Origin: Borborobacter arsenicus
GTDB lineage: Bacteria > Pseudomonadota > Alphaproteobacteria > Rhizobiales > Rhizobiaceae
Reading direction: 5' to 3'
DNA: 64,000 bases
Assembly (NCBI RefSeq): GCF_003934165.1
Contig: NZ_ML133508.1
Span: forward strand, 62,001-126,000
A program made the translations under genes and the position numbers. This document shows positions 45,292-55,935 of the stretch, in pieces. The stretch's first letter is position 1, and the number at the start of each line of letters is the position of its first letter. The notes beneath the pieces are model-generated. The model made no database searches and was not told the origin of the DNA. It saw only the letters and a list, made by a program, of their open reading frames with translations.

Positions 45292-46095
45292 ATGAAAAGC
45301 GTGATTCTAAGGGCGACGATTGTCGCCATCCTCGCCGTTCTTGGCTCGCTTCTTGCCGTTGTCACGGTCGTGCCCATGCTCGGAGGCGTCGTTGATGGCA
45401 ACGCCTGGCTCATGTGTATTGTTTGCCCGCTGGTGACTGCCTGGCCGGCCAGCTTCTACATGTTCCGGCAGGGCGACCGGCTGAAGCAGGCGTATCGCGA
45501 CCTGGCAAGAGCACATGCACAACTAGCGGCCGCGCATCGACGTCTGGAGGAGAAAGCCAGCCGCGACCATCTGACCGGCATGCTCAACCGCGAAGCCTTC
45601 TTTGCATTGCTGGACGGCTCGCGCCGCAAGGCCGATCGCGGTGCCTTGCTGATCATCGATGCCGACCATTTCAAGAAAATCAACGACAGTTACGGCCATC
45701 TGACTGGGGACAAGGCGTTACTGGAAATTGTCGGGGCAATTTCACGCGGCGTTCGCGCCGGCGATGTGCTGGGCCGCATCGGCGGCGAGGAATTCGGCGC
45801 GTTGCTTATCGGAGCTACCGACGAGGAGGCGCTGGTCGTCGCCGAGCGGGTTCGCCGCGAAGTTGAGCAGATCAGCTTCAGCCCGCTGGGGGACGGTACG
45901 ATTCCGCTCACCGTCAGCATCGGGGGAACAACCTGCAAAGCCGGTGCAACCGTCTCCGAATTGATGCGCTCTGCCGATATGCGTCTCTATGAAGCTAAGA
46001 GCCGTGGGCGCAACCGGGCAATCACAGATGGCAATATGTCTGCCGCCACCCGAAAATTTGCTTCCTTCACAGGTTGTGTCGCTGCTGAAGTATGA
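45292..46095 (+). CDS. GGDEF-domain diguanylate cyclase, membrane-bound
   Basis: A 267-residue protein with two N-terminal membrane segments (about residues 6-30 and 38-58), a short coiled coil (60-95) and a GGDEF domain (about 95-255). The active site is GGEEF, and an RxxD inhibitory site (RAGD) lies five residues ahead, as in product-inhibited cyclases. It should make cyclic di-GMP. No sensory domain or EAL domain is present. A link to the secretion locus nearby is possible but not shown. Confidence 0.92.
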   Translation: MKSVILRATIVAILAVLGSLLAVVTVVPMLGGVVDGNAWLMCIVCPLVTAWPASFYMFRQGDRLKQAYRDLARAHAQLAAAHRRLEEKASRDHLTGMLNREAFFALLDGSRRKADRGALLIIDADHFKKINDSYGHLTGDKALLEIVGAISRGVRAGDVLGRIGGEEFGALLIGATDEEALVVAERVRREVEQISFSPLGDGTIPLTVSIGGTTCKAGATVSELMRSADMRLYEAKSRGRNRAITDGNMSAATRKFASFTGCVAAEV

Positions 46096-47065: not shown

Positions 47066-47629
47066 TCAATGCGGATATGAATATTCGCGAACCAATCTCC
47101 AGATGGTGGTGTTGGTGTTCTTGATATCGTTGATGCAGTTCGTGATTTTCCTTACCTCGGCGTCGTCCAGTTCCTCGATCTTGCCGTACCGTATGTCGTC
47201 CTTCGCGTCGAATATCCGCATGAGCTGGGTGCTTCCCGAGGTTCCGGTCTCGTCAAACGAATAGATGCAGTGGCTGTACTTGTTTCGAAGTTTTGCCTGG
47301 CGCGTCAGCTGCTCGGTTACCGAAAGAATCTCGCGCCTCCGGTCGGTCGGGTTTTTGGCTAGCTTCGAAAGGCGTTCGACGAGTTCGATGCGTGCGCGTG
47401 TGGTGTTCAATGTCAGAAAGATCACGATCGCCGTTTCCTTGTCGACTCGTGCAAGGCCGGCGATGAGATAGATGAGCAGGCTTTCCGTGTTGGTCCAGGT
47501 GTAGTTCAACTGGCCGATCAACAGCAGTATTTCCTGGAAACGCGGCCCCAGCTTTGCTGGCCCTTCATGCAGTATCTCGGTGGAGGGTGGCGGGGTTCCC
47601 TGCGAGCCGTTCTTGTTCATCTCAGGCAT
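47066..47629 (-). CDS. HEPN-like alpha-helical protein of unknown function
   Basis: A 187-residue, largely helical protein. Helices are evident at FQEILLLIGQLNYTWTNTES, in the stretch with FLTLNTTRARIELVERL, and in SVTEQLTRQAKLRNKYSHCI. The last contains RNKYSH, an R-x4-H motif as in HEPN ribonucleases and nucleotide-binding HEPN proteins. There is no partner MNT or toxin-antitoxin gene adjacent. ATG 47629 is chosen for the AAAGGAAA about 10 bases upstream; Met at 47620 and 47674 are alternatives. The HEPN assignment is inference from motif and fold pattern. Confidence 0.6.
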   Translation of the reverse strand: MPEMNKNGSQGTPPPSTEILHEGPAKLGPRFQEILLLIGQLNYTWTNTESLLIYLIAGLARVDKETAIVIFLTLNTTRARIELVERLSKLAKNPTDRRREILSVTEQLTRQAKLRNKYSHCIYSFDETGTSGSTQLMRIFDAKDDIRYGKIEELDDAEVRKITNCINDIKNTNTTIWRLVREYSYPH

Positions 47630-47674
47630 TTCAGCGAGTTTCCTTTCCGGAGCTCTGCATCCTGTGGCCGGCAC

Positions 47675-48298: not shown

Positions 48299-50191
48299 AT
48301 GGCCAACAAAAACAACGGTACACAGCAATTTGGCGTCCAATTGTTCGGGGACGATCAATATAATGTTGCTTTCGACGACATTATTTATGATCCGGGCGAT
48401 CAGAGCCAAAATCAGGACCAGGGACAAGGTCAGGGCCAGGGACAAGGTCAGGGACAAGGTCAGGGCCAGGATCAGGGACAAGGCCAGGATCAGGGTCAGG
48501 GTCAGGAGCAAGGCCAGTATCAGGAGAGCGCCTCGTATAACGAGAACGCGAACGGCAATGGCAACCTCAACGGCAACGGTAATCTGAACGGCAACGGCAA
48601 CCTGAACCTCAATGGCAATGGCAACCTGAATTTGAACGGCAACGCCAATGCCAATGAAAACGTCAATACAAACACGAACACTTCGACCACGACCGTCGAT
48701 GTGAACGTCGATCTCAGCCTGGAGGGCTGGGAACCCACGGACAATGATTTCGCAGACATCGACCTGACGGATTCGTCGGTCGGTAATCTGTTCGTCAATC
48801 GCGACGGCGAGATTCACTACAATCCCGGCGATGATATCACCTTCGACGATATTTTGAACGGCTCCCTGAACGGTGCGGGCAACGATATGGCGTTCCTGCA
48901 GAACCAGGTCGCCGATCTTGAGGACAATGACACGCTCGAAAACGCTTATGTCCAGAACAACGGCACGTTCGAGCAGAACGGCAATGCCAATGGCGGCGAA
49001 GCCTATGCTGACGAAGGCATCGATGCTGGCGGCGGCGGCGGCTCCAGCGGTGACGCTTGGGGCGGCAATGGCGGCAATGGCGCCGGTGGCGGAAATGCCA
49101 ATGGCGGCGCGGCTGCCGGTGGCTTTGGTACTGGCGGCGGCGCATCGAGCGGCGCGACCGGTGGAACCGGCGTCGGTGGAGCGGCTGTAGGTGGCATCGC
49201 CACTGGCGGCGGCGCGGCCGGTGGTGCCGGCGCAGCCGGCGGTAGCGGTTCCGGCTTCGGCATCGGCCTTGGCGCGCTTGGTGTTGGTGCAGGCCAGGGT
49301 GGTGCCGGTGGTGCCGGCGGCGCTGGCGGCAATGGCGGCAACGGCAATGGCGGCGATGGCGGCAATGCGAACGCCAATGGCGGCGATGGCACTGGCGGCT
49401 CATCCCTCCCGCTGACTGGTGATGGTGGTGCCGGTGGCGCTGGTGGTGCCGGTGGCGCTGGTGGTGATGCCGGTGCGATTGCGCTTGCGGCGAACGTGCC
49501 GATCCTGTCGGCAATTGGCGCTGCGGGTGCTGCTGCGGCAGCCGGTGCCGGTGGTGGCGCCGGTGGTGCCGGTGGTGCCGGCGGTTCAGGTGGATCGAGC
49601 GGTAGTGCGGATAATGCCGATGCGTCCGGAACCGGTGGCGCAGGCGGTGCCGCGGCTGGTGGAGCCGGTGGTGCTGGTTCAGGTGGTGCAGGTGCTGCCG
49701 GCGGAACGGCTGACGGTGGCTTTGGTGCCGGCCTTGGGCTCGGCGTCGGAACGGGTGTCGGCATTGGTGCCGGTCTCGGCGGTGACGGCGGCGCAGGTGG
49801 CGCAGCGACTGGTGGCGCAGCCGCAGTCGGTGATTCCAACGGCGGTGCAGGCACCGGCGGACATGGCCTCAGCGGTGCATGGGCCGGTGACGGCACAGGC
49901 GGCGATGCCCTTGGCGGCTTCGCCTGGGGTGGTGACGGCGGCAATGGCGGCAATGGCGGCGACGCGTGGAGCGGTAACGGTGGTGCTGGCGGTGCCGGTG
50001 GACAATGGGGGTCCGGAAATGGCGATGACGGTATTGTCAACGGCATTTCGGAAGCCCATGCCGAGGCAGCCATCGATGTGACGGCATTCAACCAGAGCAT
50101 CGTGATGGGCGCCAATCTGCAGGGCAACACGATCGACATGACCGTTGTCGGTGGTGACCTGACCAGCACCTTTACTGGCGAAGACGTCTAG
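48299..50191 (+). CDS. Gln-Gly / Asn / Gly-rich low-complexity protein, candidate type I secretion substrate
   Basis: A 630-residue protein with no recognised family. A non-repetitive start (1-36, with FGVQLFGDDQYNVAFDDIIY) is followed by a Gln-Gly tract (about 40-74), an Asn-rich NGNGNLN tract (80-128), an acidic segment (130-240, including EDNDTLENAYVQNNG), a very long Gly/Ala-rich block (about 242-575, GGAGGAGG-type) and a conserved-looking tail (581-630, with FNQSIVMGANLQGNTIDM and VVGGDL). No cysteine and no N-terminal signal peptide are seen. RTX nonapeptides (GGxGxDxLx) are absent. The position at the head of an ABC exporter operon suggests export by a C-terminal signal. Confidence 0.8.
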   Translation: MANKNNGTQQFGVQLFGDDQYNVAFDDIIYDPGDQSQNQDQGQGQGQGQGQGQGQGQDQGQGQDQGQGQEQGQYQESASYNENANGNGNLNGNGNLNGNGNLNLNGNGNLNLNGNANANENVNTNTNTSTTTVDVNVDLSLEGWEPTDNDFADIDLTDSSVGNLFVNRDGEIHYNPGDDITFDDILNGSLNGAGNDMAFLQNQVADLEDNDTLENAYVQNNGTFEQNGNANGGEAYADEGIDAGGGGGSSGDAWGGNGGNGAGGGNANGGAAAGGFGTGGGASSGATGGTGVGGAAVGGIATGGGAAGGAGAAGGSGSGFGIGLGALGVGAGQGGAGGAGGAGGNGGNGNGGDGGNANANGGDGTGGSSLPLTGDGGAGGAGGAGGAGGDAGAIALAANVPILSAIGAAGAAAAAGAGGGAGGAGGAGGSGGSSGSADNADASGTGGAGGAAAGGAGGAGSGGAGAAGGTADGGFGAGLGLGVGTGVGIGAGLGGDGGAGGAATGGAAAVGDSNGGAGTGGHGLSGAWAGDGTGGDALGGFAWGGDGGNGGNGGDAWSGNGGAGGAGGQWGSGNGDDGIVNGISEAHAEAAIDVTAFNQSIVMGANLQGNTIDMTVVGGDLTSTFTGEDV

Positions 50192-50322: not shown

Positions 50323-52302
50323 GTGCTTATGGACAAGACGACAGAAGCCATCGCCCATTTCATCGGTCTGTTTGCAACCACGCTGGAAGAAGCCCGTCTG
50401 CGCAAGGACTACAACGAGTTTCAAGCAACGCGCGATTCCGCACCTGAACAACCCGGTCTCATCAACATCGACGCTTCGACGAAGGCGCCATACGACTTTG
50501 TCGAGATGGATCCTGGCCTGCGCTATCAGCCCCTGCCTCCGGACGTGATCTGGCTGGCGCCATGGATCGAGACCAATTTCCATCCGCCGCATATTCCGGT
50601 ATCGATGCCGATCTCCTCGCAGATCATCGCGAATCTTCCGGAGCCGGGCGTGGTGCACCAGGCATCGTCGCATGTCGTGTTCCACATCGACCCGCCCAGT
50701 TCGCTCGCCGCTCTTATCAATCAGGAGATCAGTCTTTCAGACAATGACTATGTCGGCGTCGGCGGTCATGGGCTGATTTTCAGCCCGGATATGGACTATG
50801 GGGCCGAGATGGCCGCCCTTCTATATGGCGCCGCGCAGCTATCGCCGGTCGGCCGTCTGGATGCACCCGGCTCCGGCGTGGAGATCGGCAACTTCATCCT
50901 CAACTCGGCGTCGGCGTTGGAAACCTTCGTCGAGGAGAGCCACCAGGATGGTGACGTGTCCGCTCTCAGCCAGGACAGGATCGAGGGGACCTATGTAAAT
51001 GGCGAGCTTGTCTCGGAGCTTCCTAATCTGAAGGATTATCTACCCGATCCCGAAGGGGAGGAGACCGATGCAGGATCAACCACGGTTCACTCCGTTCACG
51101 GGCTTGGAACTGTGGAGATCGCGGCCTCGGTCACGGTGGAAGCCGGCTCCAACCTGCTGGTCAATTCCGCAGTCCTTACCAACAACTGGCTGGTCGGACC
51201 CGTCATCGCAACGGTCGGCAATCACGTCGAACTTAATGCGATCGTGCAGATCAATGTCTGGAGCGATACCGATGCGATTGGCACTTCGGTAGGCGGGTGG
51301 GCCTTTGACCCCGGCGAGACGACGGAAGCGTTCAATATCGCCATGTTCTCGCGCATCGATCCTGGTGCAGACACACATGCCGAAGCATCAGATGATTTCC
51401 CGCAAAATTGGGCGGTTACTCGCATCGACGGCGATCTGATCCTGATGAACTGGATCGAGCAGTTCAGCTTCATGATGGACAATGATGTCCATGTCCTGTC
51501 GTCTTCGGGCGTAAAGTCCATGGTGACGACCGGCGACAACACCATGCTGAACAACGTCAATCTGACGGAGCTGGGGCTTTACTTCGACCTGATTATCGTC
51601 GGCGGCAATATTTACGACTGCAATTTCATCTACCAGATGAATGTCCTGCTCGACGACGATCTCGTCGGGGCAGTCAAAGGTTTCCAGACAGACGGGGACG
51701 GCACGCTTTCCACAAGTGGCAATCTACTGTGGAACCAGGCAGGAATCGTCAATATCGGCGGAGCCGATCGTTTTGAGACGATGCCTGATTACTACAGGGA
51801 GGCCGCTGCGAATCTGAAGGCAGGCAAGAACGATTTGCCAAGCGGCGTCTTCGGTGATGATGCCTTTGCTGGTCTTGGAGGCCTTCGGGTCCTCTATGTG
51901 TCAGGCGATATTCTCGATCTGCAATACATCAAGCAAACCAATATTTTGGGTGATGCCGACCAGGTCGCGCTAGCGATGAACAGCATCGGCGAGAACTTTC
52001 CTGATGCTCAATGGAACATATCCACGGGCTCCAACGCACTTGTCAACACGGCCGGAATTCTGGATCTCGATTCGACCGGAAAGAACTATGTCGGCGGCGA
52101 TCAATATTCGGATGAGATTTTGATCCAGGCCGAACTGGTGTCTACCGATCCCCATCTTGGCGGACAGAATCCCGATGTCCTGGTCAATGAAGCCGTTGCA
52201 TTCCTGGACGACGATTTTGCCGCCCCGGATGACGATGCCCCATCCGCCCCGACTGTTCACGATGCGCCTCATGTCGATGTCATGCAGACCATGCTGGCTT
52301 GA
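50323..52302 (+). CDS. Protein with repeated VGGD / GSN-LVN modules, candidate type I secretion substrate
   Basis: A 659-residue acidic protein with no recognised family and no N-terminal signal peptide. From about residue 265 on it is built of repeats: a GSNLLVNSA-type block (273-282, 402-411, 464-473, 567-577) alternates with a VGGD...IxQxN..xDxD block (297-318, 368-392, 426-449, 526-549, 589-611). The N-terminal 250 residues are non-repetitive, with PPDVIWLAPWIETNFHPPHI. The C terminus is Asp/Pro-rich. GTG 50323 is used (AAAGGGAG upstream); ATG 50329 is two codons later. It lies between the Gly-rich gene and the exporter, as expected for a secreted or accessory protein. Confidence 0.8.
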   Translation: MLMDKTTEAIAHFIGLFATTLEEARLRKDYNEFQATRDSAPEQPGLINIDASTKAPYDFVEMDPGLRYQPLPPDVIWLAPWIETNFHPPHIPVSMPISSQIIANLPEPGVVHQASSHVVFHIDPPSSLAALINQEISLSDNDYVGVGGHGLIFSPDMDYGAEMAALLYGAAQLSPVGRLDAPGSGVEIGNFILNSASALETFVEESHQDGDVSALSQDRIEGTYVNGELVSELPNLKDYLPDPEGEETDAGSTTVHSVHGLGTVEIAASVTVEAGSNLLVNSAVLTNNWLVGPVIATVGNHVELNAIVQINVWSDTDAIGTSVGGWAFDPGETTEAFNIAMFSRIDPGADTHAEASDDFPQNWAVTRIDGDLILMNWIEQFSFMMDNDVHVLSSSGVKSMVTTGDNTMLNNVNLTELGLYFDLIIVGGNIYDCNFIYQMNVLLDDDLVGAVKGFQTDGDGTLSTSGNLLWNQAGIVNIGGADRFETMPDYYREAAANLKAGKNDLPSGVFGDDAFAGLGGLRVLYVSGDILDLQYIKQTNILGDADQVALAMNSIGENFPDAQWNISTGSNALVNTAGILDLDSTGKNYVGGDQYSDEILIQAELVSTDPHLGGQNPDVLVNEAVAFLDDDFAAPDDDAPSAPTVHDAPHVDVMQTMLA

Positions 52303-52323: not shown

Positions 52324-54588
52324 ATGAAAGACAATCACGCACATTCCCTGCGGCCTTTCACCGACGAAAAAGGAGAGGGCGGATCAACCGGAATGCCGGA
52401 TGATGATCCCGTTCAGGCACTGTCGCGAATGCTCTACCGGACGGAAGAAGCTATGCGCTCGATGAACGACCTTGATCGGGCGATCGTCGAACTGAGCGAT
52501 GCCGCAGCATCGCGTCCCTCGCTGCCGCCCAGGCCTGATTGTGAGCGGGCTTCTCCCAGCGAGCCGCAAGCCCCGACACAGGAGGCGCCGCCCTCGTCCT
52601 GGAAACGGGAAGAAGTCGTTGAGGAGCAAGCACGGCCAACTGTAGTGGAGGTGGAGCCCGAAGTGCGGGTGGTCGAACCCAGCCGGCTTGATGTGACGGA
52701 AACAAAGTCCATCCCCGCCACCGCGCCTGGCATGGTGACGATTGATGATGACCGATCGCCCATCAAGGCTGATGGACGATCGCCTGACAAGGCCGGCCCG
52801 GGCAATTTGGACAAGGGTGGCGGAGGAGGGAGTGGCGGTGCGGGAGGCCAATTTCACCGTCGTCTCGGGCCGATAAATTTTGCGCAGAATTTGCGCGCGG
52901 GCCTGCAAGCGGTCAGGAAAAACCTGCTTGTCGTCATGATCTTCACAGTTGCCAGCAACATCCTGGTGCTGGCCATTCCCATCTATCTCTTCCAGATTTC
53001 GGATCGCGTTTTGACCAGCCGGTCGATCGATACGCTGATCATGCTCACAGTCGTGATCGTAGGAGCTGTTTTGCTGCAGGCGGCGCTCGATGCGATACGG
53101 CGTTTCATTCTGATGCGCACGGCCGTCGAGGTCGCAGCCCAGCTAGGTGCCCCGATCCTCAGTGCCGCCGCCCGCGCCGCCCTGCATAGCAATGGCCGCG
53201 AATATCAGACCCTGGGAGACCTTCAGCAATTGCGCTCCTTCCTGGTTTCGGGAACGCTTCTGGCATTTCTGGATGCGCCGATGGCGCCTTTTTTCATCCT
53301 GGCGGTCTTCCTTGTGCATCCGCATCTGGGATTTATCGTCGTCAGTTCGGCGCTTGCGTTGCTGGCGATCGCCGCGATCAACCAGCGCGCGACCTCCGGG
53401 GCTTTCAGTGAGGCCACCTCTCACCAGAGCAAGGCCAATCTTCATCTCGATTCCATGTCTCGCAATTCGCAGATCATCAATGCGCTGGCAATGATCCCGG
53501 AGGCGGTCAAGATATGGGGAAAGGACACGGCTGGTTCGCTCAAGGCACAGGTGGCGGCACAGGATCGCAATATCGTTTCTGCCGCCACCTCCAAGGCGGC
53601 GCGGCTTCTGACGCAAGTGGCAATGCTTGGCTGGGGTGCGTTTCTGGCCATCGAAGGCGAATTGACTGGCGGCATGGTCATCGCCGCTTCGATTATCGCC
53701 GGTAGGGCACTGGCACCTGTGGAAGGGGCCATCGAAGGCTGGAACCAGTTCATCCAATCGCGTGCAGCCTACGGGCGCATATCGACTCTGCTTCAGTCGT
53801 CGCCGCTCAATTTCGAGCGCTTGAACCTGCCGCGGCCGCAGGGCCGGCTCGATGTGGAGCGGCTGCTTTTCGTGCCGCAAGGCACCAAGCGTGTGGTGCT
53901 CAACGGCATCACTTTTTCGCTTTCGCCGGGCGATTCGCTGGCGATCATCGGCAATTCAGGCGCCGGAAAAACCACATTGGGCAAGATGCTGGTCGGCTCG
54001 ATCCTGCCGACCTCCGGCAATGTGCGGCTCGACCTGATGGACCTGCGCAACTGGGACCAGCGGCAGTTCGGCGAGAATATCGGCTATCTGCCGCAGGACG
54101 TTCAACTTTTCCCGGCTACCATCAAGGCCAATATCGCCCGCATGCGTGAAGATGCCAGCGATGCCGACATCTATCAGGCCGCGATGCTTGCCGATGTCCA
54201 TGAGATGATTGCAACGTTCCCGCAAGGCTATGAGACATTCGTGGCAGGCGACGGCGCACCGCTTTCCGGTGGCCAGAAACAGCGCATCGCGCTTGCCCGT
54301 GCCTTTTTCGGCAATCCGCGGATGGTCATTCTGGACGAGCCCAATTCCAATCTGGATAGCGCCGGGGATGCGGCGCTGGCGCGAGCGCTGGAACATGCCA
54401 AGCGCGAGAAGATTACCGTCATCACCATTACCCAACGGCCGGCCCTGCTGCGCAGCGTCGACAAGATTCTGCTGCTCACCAACGGAACGGTGTCGCTGTT
54501 CGGTGCGCGCCAGGAGGTCTTGCAGGCCTTGGCCGCACGGGGAATGGCGCCGAGTTCTGCCGGATCGTTGGCAACGCAATCGGAATGA
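52324..54588 (+). CDS. Type I secretion ABC exporter (PrtD-like) with N-terminal extension
   Basis: A 754-residue inner-membrane ABC exporter. The first ~180 residues are a charged, Pro/Glu/Gly-rich extension without a peptidase domain. A six-helix membrane domain follows (about 195-490) and then the ATPase: Walker A GNSGAGKTT (543-551), signature LSGGQ (647-651) and Walker B MVILDEPNSNLD. The usual H-loop His is Gln704 in TITQRP. It lacks the C39 domain of HlyB. With HlyD directly after it (no gap), and no TolC gene here, it should export the upstream products across both membranes. Confidence 0.93.
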   Translation: MKDNHAHSLRPFTDEKGEGGSTGMPDDDPVQALSRMLYRTEEAMRSMNDLDRAIVELSDAAASRPSLPPRPDCERASPSEPQAPTQEAPPSSWKREEVVEEQARPTVVEVEPEVRVVEPSRLDVTETKSIPATAPGMVTIDDDRSPIKADGRSPDKAGPGNLDKGGGGGSGGAGGQFHRRLGPINFAQNLRAGLQAVRKNLLVVMIFTVASNILVLAIPIYLFQISDRVLTSRSIDTLIMLTVVIVGAVLLQAALDAIRRFILMRTAVEVAAQLGAPILSAAARAALHSNGREYQTLGDLQQLRSFLVSGTLLAFLDAPMAPFFILAVFLVHPHLGFIVVSSALALLAIAAINQRATSGAFSEATSHQSKANLHLDSMSRNSQIINALAMIPEAVKIWGKDTAGSLKAQVAAQDRNIVSAATSKAARLLTQVAMLGWGAFLAIEGELTGGMVIAASIIAGRALAPVEGAIEGWNQFIQSRAAYGRISTLLQSSPLNFERLNLPRPQGRLDVERLLFVPQGTKRVVLNGITFSLSPGDSLAIIGNSGAGKTTLGKMLVGSILPTSGNVRLDLMDLRNWDQRQFGENIGYLPQDVQLFPATIKANIARMREDASDADIYQAAMLADVHEMIATFPQGYETFVAGDGAPLSGGQKQRIALARAFFGNPRMVILDEPNSNLDSAGDAALARALEHAKREKITVITITQRPALLRSVDKILLLTNGTVSLFGARQEVLQALAARGMAPSSAGSLATQSE

Positions 54589-55935
54589 ATGGGTAGCAAA
54601 GTGACTGTCGCCACGCATCACGATCCCGAATGGTACGCAGATGTGCCTCGCTCCATCCGCAAACAGGCCTTTGTCGGCCTCGCGCTGATGGCATTGAGTT
54701 TCGGCGGCTTTGGAACCTGGGCGATGACGGCACCGCTTGCTGCGGCCGTCATCGCCCAGGGCAGCTTTGTCGCGACCGGGCAAAACAAGATCGTGCAACA
54801 TCTGGAAGGCGGCATCATCAAGGAGTTACTGGTCAACGAGGGTGACCATGTCGAACTCAACCAGCCGCTTTTGCGGCTCGATGAGACGGCCGCAAAGGTC
54901 AATGAACGGCAGTTCTTTCTGCGCCGGCTACGTCTCGAGGGGATTGTCGCGCGCCTGTCTGCCGAGGCCGCTGGGCTGAAGAAGATCAATTTCCCTCAAA
55001 TCATCCGGGAAAATCGCGGCGATGACGACGTGGCTTCCATCGTCGCCGGCCAGGAGCTCAATTTCCAGGCGTCACGCAGCAAGCTCGAGAGCGAAATCAG
55101 CCTTCTCACCCAGAATATGAAGGCGCTCGAATTCAGAGCGAGCGGCTATCAGCAACAGTTCGATTCGATGGAAAGACAGCTCGAACTGCTGGGAGAGGAA
55201 TATGAAGGCAAGAAAGTGCTCTTGAAGCAGGGCTTGCTGCGCAAGACCGAAATCAAAGCCATTGAGCGTGCAATGGCCGATGCGGAAGGGCAGATGGGAC
55301 GGCTGGCGGCCGAGGTTTCGGAAACCGATGCGCAGATCGTCAAACATAAACAGCAGGTCGACCAGACGCTTGCCGCCTACAGACAGGCCGCGCTTGATGA
55401 ATTGCAAAGCGTAGAGGCCGATCTTGACAGCGTTCGTCAGCAATCGCGTGAGGCGGAGAATGTTCTGGGACGCGCTACGATCCATGCGCCGGTAGCCGGA
55501 ACGGTGGTGCGCATGCTCTATCACACCTCGGGCGGTGTTATCGAAAGCGGCAAGAGCATTATGGAAATTTTGCCGGCCGATGTGCCCCTCGTCATCGAAA
55601 CGCTGGTTCCGCGAACGGAAATCGACAATGTCAGGGTCGGGCAGAAGGCCACGGTTCAACTCATCGCCCTCAATCGCCGCACGACCCCGGTATTGAACGG
55701 TGAAGTCTACTATGTTTCTGCAGACTCCCTGCCTGACGCCAGCGGCGATCAGAGGCACGAAGCCTATCTCGCCCGAATCAATCTTCCGGTCAGCGAACTG
55801 TCGAGGGTACCGGGATTTTCGCCTACCCCAGGCATGCCGGTGCAGGTTATGATCCAGACGGCCGAGCGGACATTCTTCTCCTATCTGATCAAGCCGATCA
55901 CGGATAGCATGTCGCGCGCCTTCATCGAGCAGTGA
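54589..55935 (+). CDS. HlyD-family type I secretion periplasmic adaptor
   Basis: A 448-residue membrane-fusion protein. One N-terminal anchor (about residues 27-47) precedes lipoyl half-domains (VIAQGSFVATGQNKIVQHLE and IHAPVAGTVVRMLYHTSGG) that flank a long coiled coil (about 95-300), and a C-terminal beta domain with RVGQKATVQLIAL. The family links the inner-membrane ABC exporter with an outer-membrane TolC channel. The ATG starts immediately after the exporter stop, so the two are one translational unit. The TolC partner must lie elsewhere. Confidence 0.95.
   Translation: MGSKVTVATHHDPEWYADVPRSIRKQAFVGLALMALSFGGFGTWAMTAPLAAAVIAQGSFVATGQNKIVQHLEGGIIKELLVNEGDHVELNQPLLRLDETAAKVNERQFFLRRLRLEGIVARLSAEAAGLKKINFPQIIRENRGDDDVASIVAGQELNFQASRSKLESEISLLTQNMKALEFRASGYQQQFDSMERQLELLGEEYEGKKVLLKQGLLRKTEIKAIERAMADAEGQMGRLAAEVSETDAQIVKHKQQVDQTLAAYRQAALDELQSVEADLDSVRQQSREAENVLGRATIHAPVAGTVVRMLYHTSGGVIESGKSIMEILPADVPLVIETLVPRTEIDNVRVGQKATVQLIALNRRTTPVLNGEVYYVSADSLPDASGDQRHEAYLARINLPVSELSRVPGFSPTPGMPVQVMIQTAERTFFSYLIKPITDSMSRAFIEQ

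Follow-up and report, generated by a model that had tools for sequence, protein, structure and literature searches.

The 659-residue protein encoded at positions 50323–52302 on the forward strand (GTG start, with an alternative ATG at 50329) contains genuine internal repeats and belongs to a family of acidic proteins that has no name and whose genes lie directly beside those of a type I secretion system. We consider it probable (roughly 60%) that this repeat protein is exported by the system as one of its two substrates, forming a beta-rich scaffold at the cell surface or in a matrix together with a low-complexity partner encoded upstream. All positions refer to the window, the 64,000-nucleotide stretch of Borborobacter arsenicus DNA that was analysed, which is located on contig C2 of a 5.4-Mb genome comprising 107 contigs.

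The repeat region (positions 51091–52155, residues 257–611) is composed of two alternating block types, G-x-N-x3-N-x-A-x-h and h-x-Q-x-N-x3-D-x-D-x-h (h, hydrophobic), which have identical internal spacing and represent one kind of motif. A lone N-terminal Q-block at residue 134 (50716–50754 (+), residues 132–144) is followed, on the same strand, by five units consisting of a G-block and a Q-block each: G275–Q309 (unit 1, 51145–51279, residues 275–319), G332–Q380 (unit 2, 51316–51492, residues 332–390), G404–Q438 (unit 3, 51532–51666, residues 404–448), G465–Q538 (unit 4, 51715–51966, residues 465–548), and G569–Q602 (unit 5, 52027–52158, residues 569–612, with a weakened Q-block). The spacer of unit 4 is ~40 residues longer than those of units 1, 3, and 5. 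The original prediction had recognized this alternation by eye and listed nine blocks, all of which are present within two residues of the positions given, the G-block motifs beginning 1–2 residues later. Its list missed Q134, which is seen in pattern counts, masked-unit hidden Markov models (HMMs), and conservation, and the G332 block, which is degenerate in the window protein with N338-x-A340 conserved. A constant “VGGD” in the Q-type block was not borne out either, the literal motif being inconstant, with a consensus of approximately [VI]-x-G-[DN].

The reality of the repeat is confirmed both by pattern counts against shuffled sequences and by HMM self-matches. The pattern [QGST]-x-N-x3-[ND]-x-[ADN], which like the other motif and tag patterns was written after the sequences had been looked at, matches the window protein six times, a number reached by none of 5000 residue shuffles (mean 0.40, maximum 4). 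To avoid circularity, an HMM built for each unit from 26 homologues was searched against these proteins after the unit in question had been masked (match threshold i-Evalue ≤0.01), and the self-similarity detected in this way lies inside each single protein. The HMMs of units 1, 2, 3, and 5 and of the Q-block of unit 4 match other units in all 26 homologues, that of the G-block of unit 4 does so in 21, and that of the Q134 block in 17, compared to 0–2 matches per 520 residue-shuffled sequences in each test. Because the 26 homologues are mutually related, these counts are not 26 independent proofs of the repeat. In three relatives (L037–L039), the strict patterns are sparse (two core matches and no strict Q-block), and the unit profile still finds four stretches in each of them.

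Conservation within the 11 blocks has a period of two, with 3.33 bits at even offsets vs. 1.79 bits at odd offsets, a difference not reached in any of 20000 permutations. The 24 windows with the strongest period-two conservation among 535 possible 11-residue windows all overlap the blocks; only a slight even–odd difference (2.35 vs. 2.13) is found in the last block, Q602. Conservation of every second block residue is as expected of beta strands with one conserved face, and the mean strand propensity (Chou–Fasman values) is only slightly raised in the units (1.03–1.13 vs. 0.92–0.97 in other measured stretches). The period-two conservation indirectly supports the beta-rich part of the fold that had been proposed. 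For a solenoid arrangement, the AlphaFold2 models of the full-length protein (2 alignment rows, mean pLDDT 27, few strands and some helices) and of one 79-residue unit (10 rows, mean pLDDT 41, only two strands, on the Q-block and the following G-block) are both too poor for interpretation. The recurrence of Asp-x-Asp holds for five of the six Q-blocks: in the first five, the Asp pair is conserved in 21–26 of the 23–26 sequences present per position, and in Q602 the Gln is kept and the first Asp is mostly lost. Such conserved pairs would permit the binding of cations, binding itself being a guess.

That the original prediction could place the pattern in no named family agrees with searches of Pfam, NCBIfam, PHROGs, and the PDB. 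The window protein has no family match in NCBIfam, PHROGs, or the PDB, the 26-member family has no relative in the PDB, and in neither did Pfam or NCBIfam reveal an RTX or cadherin-like domain, or an adhesin domain of known type, above cut-off; LapA was matched by one family member at 0.065. Four Pfam families were each matched by 1–2 of the 26 members (best 0.023) and four NCBIfam families by one member each (best 0.00056), and all were treated as chance matches because they are not common to the members. A Pfam match of the window protein to a foamy virus envelope family (0.27, below cut-off) was likewise attributed to chance, and a phage or viral origin was rejected, with no relative in three viral-contig scans and a phage collection.

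Among 297 genomes of the order, a single-sequence search found homologues of the repeat protein in 26 and a profile search in 27, the latter giving E <1e-150 in 24 genomes. In 22 of these the protein is full-length, in one it is truncated where the contig ends (G102), and in one it is split (G074; locus L041, contig C2 ~76485–78468), the gene being in pieces with an internal stop codon. The remaining three profile matches (G108, G289, and G267) are divergent. Homologues are present in 2 of 385 genomes of a class sample, one being the window's own genome, and in 8 of 398 genomes of a phylum sample, again including the own genome, none of them outside the class. Matches in 32 of 72,556 records of a plasmid collection include Ensifer, Sinorhizobium, Paracoccus, Sulfitobacter, and Shinella. 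The closest named relative, from Aquamicrobium sp. LC103 (L028), shares ~65% identity over the whole protein and an identical gene order. In three Sulfitobacter records, the product name given to the repeat protein is “type I secretion protein ATPase”; one protein so labelled (L058, 8001–10109) was without any Pfam match at 0.1.

The repeat protein gene is the second in a conserved four-gene operon, in which the gene for the low-complexity protein precedes it and genes for a PrtD-type type I secretion ABC transporter (52324–54588 (+); TIGR01842, 710.5 bits, cut-off 510.15) and an HlyD-type membrane fusion protein (54589–55935 (+); TIGR01843, 378.8 bits, cut-off 208.65) follow after gaps of 21 and 0 bases, respectively. 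The transporter has an N-terminal extension of ~190 amino acids that is partly Gly- and Pro-rich (52324–52900 (+)). The repeat protein, PrtD, and HlyD genes are adjacent in this order at all 26 loci (L028–L053; 25 by BLAST and L053 by the repeat profile), all of which were selected through their repeat-protein match, and at each of them the gene has the position beside an ABC transporter and a membrane fusion protein that characterizes a type I substrate. Outer-membrane channel genes are present elsewhere in the genome: PF02321 exceeds its cut-off in three open reading frames (ORFs) on contigs C25, C28, and C32, and in none on contig C2. Contig C1 encodes a further PrtD-type transporter that exceeds the cut-off, and the pairing of exporter and substrate therefore rests on adjacency. 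In the surroundings of the operon, an ORF of the diguanylate cyclase type with a GGDEF domain (45292–46095 (+), 1.3e-38) lies 2.2 kb upstream, and on one Sulfitobacter plasmid the cluster is found near genes for galE, a UDP-glucuronate decarboxylase, and a glycosyltransferase.

The partner encoded upstream (630 amino acids, 48299–50191 (+)) is of low complexity, rich in Gln, in Asn, and then in Gly and Ala. Its sequence comprises an Asp-Gln/Gly-Gln stretch, an Asn-Gly stretch, a long Gly-Ala-rich part, and a conserved C-terminal tag (F-x-Q-x-I-x2-G-A-N-x-Q and following residues, 50087–50158 (+)). At most of the 24 listed loci, the gene upstream encodes a protein of low complexity in which Gln, Asn, Gly, or Ala is abundant, with wide variation in length and composition. 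The tag F/H-x2/3-[IV]-x2-G-[ASLG]-[NQ]-x-[QLM] was found by regular expression at the C-terminus of the upstream protein in 21 of 24 cases (the window plus 23 loci; misses at L035, L044, and L046; L041 with its split gene, L043 at a contig end, and L053 omitted). In the divergent genome G108 (L052/L069), both the family profile (3.2e-9) and the unit profile (2e-4) hit the protein encoded upstream, indicating that, at least in this lineage, the two co-encoded proteins have a motif type in common. By eye, this 268-residue protein (L069, 5598–6404 (−)) consists of about four copies of Q-x-N-x3-D-x-D plus a G-block, and it offers a simple model for the repeat. The C-terminus of the window's own partner matches the repeat profile only marginally (sequence E 0.034, stretch E 0.19), and this match was discarded as proof of homology.

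We infer that the repeat protein would be made without an N-terminal signal, recognized at its C-terminus by the PrtD-type ABC transporter, and exported in one step through PrtD, HlyD, and a TolC-like channel whose gene lies elsewhere in the genome. A candidate secretion signal is the C-terminal tail D-x-[LMF]-x2-h-h-x (52276–52299 (+)), which is conserved in 24 of the 26 homologues; RTX proteins are described as carrying an uncleaved C-terminal secretion signal of ~60 residues (PMC3034196). Outside the cell, the protein would fold into a beta-rich repeat array with Gln, Asn, and Asp side chains lining one face, and it would act with its low-complexity partner as a surface or matrix scaffold. 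It is rather unlikely that the repeat protein is instead an unsecreted accessory, such as a cytoplasmic or envelope chaperone or assembly factor, which delivers the low-complexity protein as the sole real substrate. The tight linkage to the transporter gene at all 26 loci would suit such a role, as would the conserved N-terminal segment E-x-I-x-H-F-x-G of the repeat protein and the substrate-like features of the upstream protein, namely its variable length and composition and its own conserved C-terminal tag. However, the repeat protein itself resembles type I substrates in its conserved C-terminal tail, its strong acidity (calculated pI from 4.05, the method's floor, to 4.63 in all 26 homologues), and its low Cys content (0–5 residues), and in one divergent genome, as described above, both proteins contain like repeats. 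The window protein also has no 19-residue stretch with a hydropathy >1.33.

Secretion of both proteins as a scaffold would place the cluster among the PrtD/HlyD type I systems, in which a likely substrate gene is likewise followed directly by genes matching TIGR01842 and TIGR01843. It differs from these systems in the two unnamed proteins in front, the lack of an RTX match, the HEPN-like companion described below, and channel-type genes found only on other contigs. The repeat protein shares with RTX beta-roll proteins its acidity, Asp at regular positions, and the type I secretion context, but its repeats are unevenly spaced and match no RTX family. Membership in the RTX family, defined by GGxGxDxLx nonapeptides, was rejected, as GGxGxD occurs once each in 2 of the 26 members and not at all in the window protein. 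Another alphaproteobacterial type I operon with a surface-protein gene upstream is that of BapA/BapBCD in Paracoccus denitrificans, an arrangement that serves biofilm formation according to PMC5588039. As described in the same source, BapA differs in having Asp-Ala repeats, the bap operon includes bapD for an outer-membrane protein, and strain Pd1222 has a single predicted type I system. We found the present cluster in another P. denitrificans strain (L054), on a 1.73-Mb replicon. BapA is a different protein from a different operon, but it illustrates that an arrangement of this kind can be used for biofilm formation by Alphaproteobacteria.

A curli-like two-component amyloid exported by type I secretion, with the repeat protein nucleating fibres of its partner under a CsgD-like regulator, appears very unlikely. 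As in the case of CsgB and CsgA, two proteins with Gln/Asn-patterned sequences are co-encoded, and a LuxR-type regulator reminiscent of CsgD is found near some loci. It is divergent from the operon, with strong matches, at 7 of the 26 loci (L029 and L031–L036), weakly matched at L047 and L052, also present at L054, L056, L057, L058, and L071, and within ~5 kb at L072 and L074. The C-terminal part of these regulators aligns with CsgD (30%–48% identity over 62–135 residues, E 4e-13 to 1.5e-10), and a GerE domain was found in all six regulators scanned, a receiver domain being matched in only one of the six (0.032, with matches listed to 0.1 in part of the scan). However, such similarity of LuxR-type helix-turn-helix regions is generic, and neither the window nor L028 yielded a LuxR-type regulator. 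Furthermore, a relationship to curlins was rejected on sequence grounds: PF07012 matched neither the window protein nor anything in its genome, and the E. coli control was positive. Profile comparison with the CsgA/CsgB repeats by hhalign did not rise above column-shuffled controls, giving 7.14 for the blocks (maximum 8.66 among 30 controls) and 9.12 for the unit profile (reached by 3 of 50 controls). The export route also differs, and the spacing from Q to D/N is, by eye, one residue longer here than in the curlin repeat. Any likeness to curli in the way the proteins work would be one of analogy only. We give hardly any credence to a reading in which the secreted protein is an enzyme or effector whose activity lies in the variable N-terminal 250 residues, carried by the repeats as a rigid support, since these residues, while unlike the repeat region and containing conserved short stretches such as YVNG, are otherwise poorly conserved, and no enzyme family is common to the members: a FokI cleavage domain was matched by two (best 0.023, far from significant) and other families by single members.

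A 202-residue companion (47066–47674 (−)) is encoded divergently from the operon and placed upstream or downstream of the cluster at other loci. Relatives are present at 22 of the 26 loci; two further loci (L030 and L043) are truncated at contig ends, with the companion found in these genomes near the end of another contig, adjoining the missing pieces of the cluster, and none was found at L052 and L053. Within the order, 25 of 297 genomes encode the companion, namely G294 and all 24 in which the repeat protein is strongly matched, and it is missing from the three genomes whose only repeat proteins are divergent. The co-occurrence spans 15 of 123 genera and is inflated by species relatedness. 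The G294 gene (L068, 9600–10184 (−)) is the sole companion gene in a genome without a repeat protein, and no PrtD/HlyD pair was found within 19.5 kb of it.

R130, N131, and H135 are invariant in all 21 aligned companions (the window, 17 of the 22 loci, and 3 named records) and conform to the R-x4-6-H arrangement of HEPN proteins; W-x-N-x-E-S and F-x-T-L-N-T-x-R-A-R are invariant as well. We take this R-N-x3-H to fit the HEPN nuclease motif. HEPN proteins act on RNA and are known mostly from defence and toxin–antitoxin systems. Unlike recognized HEPN proteins, the companion stays below the Pfam cut-off: HEPN_Cthe2314, the best HEPN match, was obtained for 3 of the 21 members (E 0.011, 16.2 vs. 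27.1 bits), none of which had a HEPN match above cut-off, and unrelated families are matched as often (HTH_30 in 4 of 21, WD40_alt in 3 of 21). Searches of the PDB (best 0.77) and PADLOC gave no relative or match, respectively. In view of this weak profile support, we refer to the companion as HEPN-like and not as HEPN. Its conserved residues suggest that it may be an RNA-cutting enzyme; that it regulates the cluster, perhaps through an action on RNA, is the most speculative of our proposals. It also seems quite unlikely that the cluster represents a surface-fibre system and type I-secreted counterpart of curli, in which two Gln/Asn-patterned proteins, an ordered repeat protein and a low-complexity partner, are exported under the control of a dedicated HEPN-type RNase and, in many species, of a CsgD-like regulator as well.

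This conserved alphaproteobacterial export gene cluster is apparently undescribed, as searches of the titles and abstract beginnings in a library of open papers found none concerned with such a cassette and nothing on a HEPN protein tied to type I secretion, the two papers containing both terms being unrelated judging by their titles. Soil, plant-associated, and marine Alphaproteobacteria share an export cassette with two likely substrates that have neither a name nor a fold. If the companion is truly a HEPN protein, a type of protein that acts on RNA would be tied to the secretion of surface proteins.
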